Assembly: GCF_003600835.1 (NCBI RefSeq)
Contig: NZ_NQYC01000001.1
Span: 1,240,001-1,304,000, forward strand
Direction: 5' to 3'
Source of the DNA: Bacillus sp. PK3_68
Lineage (GTDB): Bacteria; Bacillota; Bacilli; Bacillales; Domibacillaceae
DNA length: 64,000 nucleotides
The notes beneath the pieces were generated by a model. It was not told the DNA's origin. It saw only the letters and a list, made by a program, of their open reading frames with translations, and ran no database searches. Both the position numbers and the translations under genes were made by a program. This document shows, one piece after another, positions 52,328 to 52,699 of this stretch (positions are counted from its first letter, which is position 1; every line of letters begins with the position of its first letter).

Positions 52328-52699
52328 AAAAGCGGAAGGCGCTCGCTCAGCGCAATAGCAGATTGGAGCTTTCGACGTGGAGTCGTTTCTTAGACTCCGA
52401 CCGAGAGAGCGAAATCAGCGTACGCGCTAGCGCCTGCAGCTGGATAACACAACAAAAGCGGAAGGCGCTCGTCCAGCGGTGACAAGCACAACACGAACCG
52501 ACTGAAAGGCTGCCCTTGAGCCTTCCAGACGGGTGGGCTTGTGACCTCGAGCCGCTAGCGCCTATAGCTAGATAACAATAAAAGCGGAAGGCGCTCGCTC
52601 AGCGCAATAGACGGTTGGAGAAAGGAATCGGGGAGTCGCTCTTTGACTCCTGAGACCTATCGAAACGGTCGTATGCGCTAGCGCCTATAACTAGATAAT
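52328..52699 (+). repeat. Dispersed hairpin modules, three tandem units (locus D)
   Basis: Three tandem units start at AAAAGCGGAAGGCGCTCG: D1 52328-52447 (type I), D2 52454-52576 (type II) and D3 52580-52699 (type I), a period near 126 bp. Each ends in GCGCTAGCGCC-like arm plus AGCTGGATAA or CTAGATAA. D1 and D3 share the inner hairpin GGAGTC/GACTCC; D2 has the long arm with ACAAGC/GCTTGT and AAGGCT/AGCCTT. The block fills the queA-tgt gap in the opposite orientation to the copies that follow stop codons. Beyond it, 52700-52825 shows no gene. Confidence 0.88.

Follow-up and report, generated by a model that had tools for sequence, protein, structure and literature searches.

REP/BIME elements are multicopy palindromes that occur in clusters, with a GTAG/CGTC tag and RAYT transposases, and integron attC sites are long imperfect hairpins, recognised by their structure, that stand directly behind genes and in arrays. 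REPs are 20–40 bp in size (PMC3733652), and of the elements in Escherichia coli and its relatives 446 of 4,072 lie within 15 nt of a stop codon, with 260 of 496 given by an earlier study (PMC12306157). For the Bacillus lineage, bcr1, one of the bcr repeats of the Bacillus cereus group, is described as a ~150-bp repeat with a stem-loop structure, and Bhal-1 and Bhal-2 of the related species B. halodurans as multicopy stem-loop repeats of 74 and 76 bp (PMC2267715).

The repeat units described here, which occur in a 64-kb stretch of DNA (the whole stretch analysed, called the window) and elsewhere in the host genome, resemble REP/BIME elements in that they are small, multicopy, intergenic imperfect palindromes that are clustered (20 of the 37 arrays of the host genome hold two or more units) and in the share of copies close to stop codons. 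They differ in length (106–150 bp in the host genome, against 20–40 bp for REPs), in that no GTAG/CGTC tag was seen by eye at the unit ends, in that no linked RAYT was found, and in the polarity of their contact with genes. Because neither the linked transposase nor the size agrees, we say that the units work like REP/BIME elements and not that they are such elements. The likeness to bcr1, a comparison by description, lies in the size of ~150 bp, the stem-loop and the Bacillus lineage, whereas the present family is spread over an order and also occurs outside it. Bhal-1 and Bhal-2, at 74 and 76 bp, differ in size and may coincide with a part of the family. Like attC sites, the units are long imperfect hairpins directly behind genes and in arrays, but no cassettes were seen here, and host genes stay put where they were compared. 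A search of the open literature by the exact strings CTTCCGCTTTTC and AAAAGCGGAAG and by topic returned no description of the repeat family in the portions of text that it covered.

A family of hairpin units with a common base and several distal arms

Reading of the sequence, together with cmsearch using two covariance models (R1 and R2) built from host-genome copies, identified nine units or fragments at five loci in the window (Table 1). Each unit reads from TTGTCYAGCT to CGCTTTTC and is an imperfect palindrome of about 120–150 bp with a single long hairpin as its predicted fold: an outer AGC/GCT stem, then a variable stem of 5–6 bp, a bulge of ~5 nt confined to the 3' side, another variable stem (~5–6 bp) and a distal arm. 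The units form one family, in which the base is common to types I, II, II' and III and the distal arm is specific to the type. Loops and bulge are conserved, and stems that are wholly different between units still pair. By eye, inversion at the unit ends is limited to the outer stem, with no further terminal inverted repeats.

Table 1 Repeat units and adjoining genes in the window, with positions counted from its first letter.
Feature	Position	Strand	Evidence	Remark
A1, type I unit	4378..4497	+	R1 125.6 bits	
A2, type III unit	4498..4650	+	R1 50.3 bits and sequence	~150 bp; common base, different distal arm
B1, type I unit	17687..17807	+	R1 102.5 bits	altered left end
B2, type II' unit	17809..17929	+	R2 120.9 bits and context	
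C, truncated unit	36138..36193	+	sequence	right end only
E, truncated type I unit	45250..45331	+	sequence	only right end kept
secDF	45333..47597	-	NF009581, 1255.6 bits	stop codon directly adjoined by right end of unit E
tgt	51165..52304	-	TIGR00430, 626 bits	downstream of array D
D1, type I unit	52327..52447	-	R1 129.7 bits	right end directly 5' of tgt Shine-Dalgarno region
D2, type II unit	52453..52575	-	R2 113.7 bits	
D3, type I unit	52579..52698	-	R1 111.9 bits	
queA	52826..53863	-	NF001140, 508.1 bits	upstream of array D

The original prediction had proposed two module types with common ends at five loci. The five loci stand, but locus A holds the longer type III, so that there are more than two types, and the common ends are present at most units, the exceptions being C and E, where the left end is lost, and B1, where it is altered. 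The predicted order I-II-I at locus D and I-II at locus B was recovered by cmsearch on the window, and the quoted arm sequences were found in the DNA.

None of the window units matched an Rfam family at the gathering cut-off, and locus D gave only weak matches (E 0.12 and 0.56), far below gathering. The Twister-P5 match (E 0.56), which spans a unit junction, was dismissed as noise. The window also holds two 6S RNA genes (32477–32665 on the minus strand and 56560–56745 on the plus strand), the only matches of the genome at E ≤ 0.001, and a T-box leader at 35856–36086 (minus strand) lies beside the truncated unit C. In a second genome of the genus (G001), a ~50-nt extension (AAAATAATCGCAGGGTGGATA...) precedes the units at loci L083, L258, L259, L262 and L263; by eye these extended units stand just behind intrinsic terminators, and the extension is possibly a longer sub-element of that genome.

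Changes in the paired arms are compensated

To assess the paired arms, MAFFT alignments of host-genome copies were used (17 type I and 14 type II sequences). In type I, both sides were changed in 20 of the 34 pairs, which none of 500 shuffles reached and which compares with at most 9 in slid versions; in type II, this was so for 13 of the 22 pairs (reached by 2 of 500 shuffles; at most 7 in slid versions). Paired cells amounted to 94.1% in type I (shuffled mean 81.2%) and 93.8% in type II (shuffled mean 79.1%). The number of further pair types in type II was unexceptional, since 159 of 500 shuffles reached it.

Since these structures came from the very alignments tested, the test was repeated with fixed offsets from the conserved ends and without a structure-fitted alignment, on 113 distinct end pairs from 81 loci (39 rows were skipped). 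Two other steps of the analysis covered 80 of these 81 loci, and a further one covered 42 of the 52 loci L077–L128. Among these rows, which are somewhat biased to foldable units because covariance models had gathered them, 83.2% of the cells were paired, against a shuffle maximum of 67.0% and 57.5% for the best slide (+1). Double-changed cells numbered 209 against a shuffle maximum of 96, but the +1 slide still gave 158. The claim that arms differ between copies and stay complementary was thus confirmed both by the shuffle and slide tests and by the fixed-offset test, and it follows that the pairing is upheld either by selection or through a mutational process that corrects palindromes.

The right end of the arrays faces the adjoining gene

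The polarity of the arrays toward genes is a new observation: the CGCTTTTC end, which we call the right end, faces the adjoining gene. Among 136 outermost right ends, 45 lie 0–9 nt after the stop codon of an ORF on the opposite strand, with 1, 4 and 1 at 10–19, 20–29 and 30–39 nt, respectively, where ORFs are mechanical frames of at least 80 aa and not curated genes. Within the window, the right end of B2 lies ~3 nt from the stop of an 84-aa ORF on the opposite strand that matches no NCBIfam family. A later set, of 145 right and 103 left ends, is slightly enriched since it includes some RNase J loci fetched for having the element; in it, 49 right ends but only 4 left ends were 0–9 nt from a stop, and 11 right ends and 1 left end lay 10–29 nt 5' of a same-sense start, the right ends with a Shine-Dalgarno-like site there. 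The count on 136 ends is the cleaner one, because it was taken before the RNase J loci were added. Random insertion fails to account for this one-sided stop contact, so that selection or targeting must be added; the gene-facing polarity is a feature for which we have no explanation by neutral insertion.

Of the 47 stop-class arrays, 22 have a terminator-like site no more than 200 nt past the distal end, compared with 23 of 95 other arrays and 88 of 300 control stops, and many arrays are therefore probably inside transcripts.

An unlikely reading of the polarity is that the contact belongs to the mechanism and does not merely result from selection: the units would be DNA-level elements whose right end is put or kept at the limits of translated regions, behind stop codons or in front of Shine-Dalgarno sites, by a putative enzyme, of the host or of the element, acting on the folded single strand. 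A second reading, that each unit is a functional structured RNA, a cis-acting mRNA element (a 3'UTR stabiliser or translation regulator) for which one strand's transcript is selected, would suit the covariation of the paired arms, the stop-codon contact in one orientation and the terminator-like sites beyond the distal end of the stop-class arrays. Wobble pairs bear on it directly, since selection on the transcript of one strand is expected to tolerate wobble on that strand only.

G-T and A-C mismatches are about equal in the paired arms

In an alignment of 150 rows (A3; 140 distinct), 128 G-T and 116 A-C combinations stand at paired positions, or about 75 to 85 without the doubtful columns 12/235 and 38/207; some of the model pairs are probably not true pairs, so that the ratio is approximate, yet it is far from the tRNA pattern. 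As a control, 73 distinct tRNAs of the same DNA were scored at their acceptor stems, with the pairing register that has the most Watson-Crick pairs taken for each, and gave 29 G-T to 4 A-C. The host-genome sets gave 11 G-T to 18 A-C for type I and 25 to 11 for type II, a single invariant column supplying 14 of the latter 25. Copies also lie beside genes in both orientations: tallies by nearest gene, in which 34 of the 37 host arrays had a fetched locus, placed 54 and 23 at 3' ends and 22 and 17 at 5' ends.

The one-strand folded-RNA reading is weakened by these results, because G-T about equals A-C and the copies stand on either strand, and we consider it rather unlikely. Of the original proposal of selection on a folded structure, the pairing is upheld and the RNA of one strand is not.

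The family spans the Bacillales and reaches beyond the order

At E ≤ 0.01, the host genome contains at least 49 R1 and at least 57 R2 matches, which overlap (best 2.2e-36 and 6.2e-34). Merging the matches of both models by hand, without antisense self-matches, a 44-bp fragment, C and E, yielded 64 units in 37 arrays, of which 17 are single, 15 double, 3 triple and 2 quadruple. All four genomes of the genus carry the family, with R2 matches at E ≤ 1e-6 numbering at least 28, 145, 7 and 34 in the host (G000), G001, G002 and G003; these copy numbers are lower bounds, since few candidates were scored per genome (150 in the host and genus, 12 in the order and class samples). In the order Bacillales, an R1 match at E ≤ 1e-6 was obtained in 198 of the 299 genomes sampled and in 80 of the 117 genera, the hosts including Lederbergia, Neobacillus, Cytobacillus, Mesobacillus, Metabacillus and Planococcus. 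The matches in the host genome and across the order show that the repeats are not a chance resemblance. A sample of the class gave matches in 41 of 299 genomes, 23 of them outside the order, in three families. The original prediction had mentioned similar sequences in other Bacillus genomes and proposed a covariance-model search of Bacillaceae genomes; the order-wide search bears this out and shows a family larger than was then stated.

Plasmid and phage records gave almost no match: within the sensitivity of blastn with one composite query, 1 of 72,556 plasmid records matched, a 690-kb record with the match at its first bases, and 0 of 50,697 phage records. On the host chromosome the arrays are unevenly distributed: among the matches listed, no array lies before 0.96 Mb and one lies between 2.8 and 4.0 Mb; a replichore bias is seemingly absent by eye from the host match coordinates. 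At three loci (L103, L109 and L110), in three genomes of three families, a unit has inserted between the 23S and 5S rRNA genes in antisense orientation to the operon.

Gene junctions are kept at orthologous sites while unit types change

Orthologous sites keep the gene junction while the unit types change. The element starts directly after the stop codon of an RNase J family gene (TIGR00649) in all four genus genomes, the host included, and likewise in a genome of another genus (G192); from synteny, we take this gene to be J2/rnjB and its ClpP-like neighbour to be tepA. The units at this site are, variously, a type II with a fragment, I-II, a degenerate unit, three II-like units with a fragment, and a type I with a fragment. 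A partial copy is present in G302 and perhaps a trace in G311, and by eye the remaining orthologous loci, of 24 in all, have no element there. Between queA and tgt, the host, G003 and G001 all have the right end immediately in front of the tgt Shine-Dalgarno region, with different units, and the covariance model finds no unit in G002. At an array 6.3 kb beyond the window end, all four genus genomes have the right end 5' of the Shine-Dalgarno region that belongs to the next gene, and unit order or type varies among them. The site of unit C has a unit in G003 and a three-unit array in G001, and the stop junction of secDF is similar in G003 and G001, with other units there. G002, with its at least 7 R2 matches, has only relics at several orthologous sites. 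The G003 orthologue of window positions 4378–4650 is a relic with a deleted interior and both ends kept.

That sites are common to several species would suit a functional structured RNA, but the variation of unit types by species at one site and the relics in G002 speak against it. Mixed units at fixed sites also resemble attC, and the units could be attC-like sites, directly behind genes, whose folded single strand is the substrate of a structure-specific recombinase. The folded base that is kept as the sequence changes, the tandem arrays and the orientation-specific placement right after stop codons point the same way; the flanking genes within the region compared are largely syntenic and not moving cassettes, and the attC core consensus is not evident in the units, so that such sites are a very improbable explanation.

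Arrays contain nested and duplicated units, and no linked transposase was found

The tandem arrays mix unit types, and their spacers are locus-specific: in 27 of 66 arrays, at least 3 nt of the spacers recur in the right flank, where shuffles gave 12.1 arrays on average and 20 at most. Direct repeats of at least 4 nt were counted in 33 of 176 arrays, a weak overall excess over shuffles, which averaged 13.6 and never exceeded 26. At the array beyond the window, AAGT occurs at the right flank in the host, G003 and G002 and at the left flank in G003 and G002 but not in the host or G001; the spacers of the host and G003 contain it too. The pattern is suggestive of a target duplication at this one locus. 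One genome (G100) has 23S-5S spacers both with and without a unit, with TTGT on both sides; as its neighbouring operons differ, target duplication and microhomology are not distinguishable at this site.

Two loci of G001 contain a unit inverted within another unit, a type I unit in L077 (1260–1480) and a II' unit in L083 (1450–1640), inserted at the same point and with no clear target duplication. The nesting shows that units enter other units, although a composite may also have been copied and then have exchanged its inner unit. L080 has the same junction as these nested units. In G003, an array of nine has near-identical neighbours, which point, as far as the sequence goes, to tandem duplication. 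In the light of the nested units of G001 and the relics at several sites in G002, the original wording that selection acts "rather than" the units being a decaying insertion was too strong.

PF01797, the Y1 transposase family, has 0 matches in the host genome; of the four genus genomes only G001 is positive, with two matches (loci L270 and L271), the better of which scores 69.7 bits on NF047646, below the cut-off of 80. This REP-type Y1 transposase of 187 aa (L270, 1300–1863) is by eye flanked by a different palindrome, GGGGTCAGTCCCC, and neither locus has an R1 or R2 match at E ≤ 1, the 3.3-kb transposase locus being without a unit. The transposase and its palindrome are apparently a separate REP system, and a RAYT as mobiliser was rejected, being absent from the host genome and unlinked to units in G001. 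A scan for an autonomous parent, in which left and right ends without a partner had to match in their stems, returned one orphan end pair (L159; 1,754 bp, longest open frame 266 aa) and no convincing parent in the 1.65 Mb of partly overlapping DNA that was fetched. As far as the Y1 search and the 1.65-Mb scan reach, these results agree with the original finding of no transposase; transposase-linked parents with target duplications, the contrary outcome named there, were not found, and the excess of duplications is weak.

An ordinary decaying MITE of a DNA transposon, with compensation by template switching (quasi-palindrome correction) in place of selection, appears quite unlikely to us. It is in keeping with the multicopy, tandem and nested copies and relics, with AAGT at the flanks and spacers of the one locus, left flank of the host and G001 excepted, and with the rRNA-spacer allele without a unit, and equal G-T and A-C suit a DNA-level process. 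Against it stand the lack, by eye, of terminal inverted repeats past the outer stem and of a convincing parent, the conservation of loops and bulge with stems that differ wholesale yet pair, and the stop-codon polarity, which it leaves unaccounted for.

Discussion

We favour, with moderate confidence, the reading that the family is a repeat of the Bacillales that resembles REP/BIME elements, is constrained by its structure, is or was mobile and often stands in 3'UTRs. The units would spread, or would once have spread, in trans through a putative enzyme that reads the folded single strand, which would keep the structure while the sequence drifts. New units would be added next to or within existing ones, arrays would be reshuffled by duplication, deletion and gene conversion, and copies would survive at gene edges. 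By analogy with REPs, many copies probably lie in 3'UTRs, where a hairpin in contact with a gene may influence its translation termination or the decay of its mRNA. The near-absence from plasmids and phages, odd for an active mobile repeat, argues against this reading, as do the weak target duplication overall and the result that neither a linked transposase nor a convincing parent was found.

Two thirds of the genomes sampled in the order contain the repeat, which places large hairpins directly behind the stop codons of core genes, among them secDF and an RNase J gene. If contact were part of the mechanism, the family would represent a mobile or recombining element tied to the boundaries of translation. 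If the units act on mRNA, they would represent a widespread, so far unrecognised layer of gene control in the Bacillales; if they are only mobile, they point to a structure-reading enzyme and to a REP-like system without a linked RAYT. The sites at which sister species carry different units make both the mRNA-acting and the mobile readings testable.
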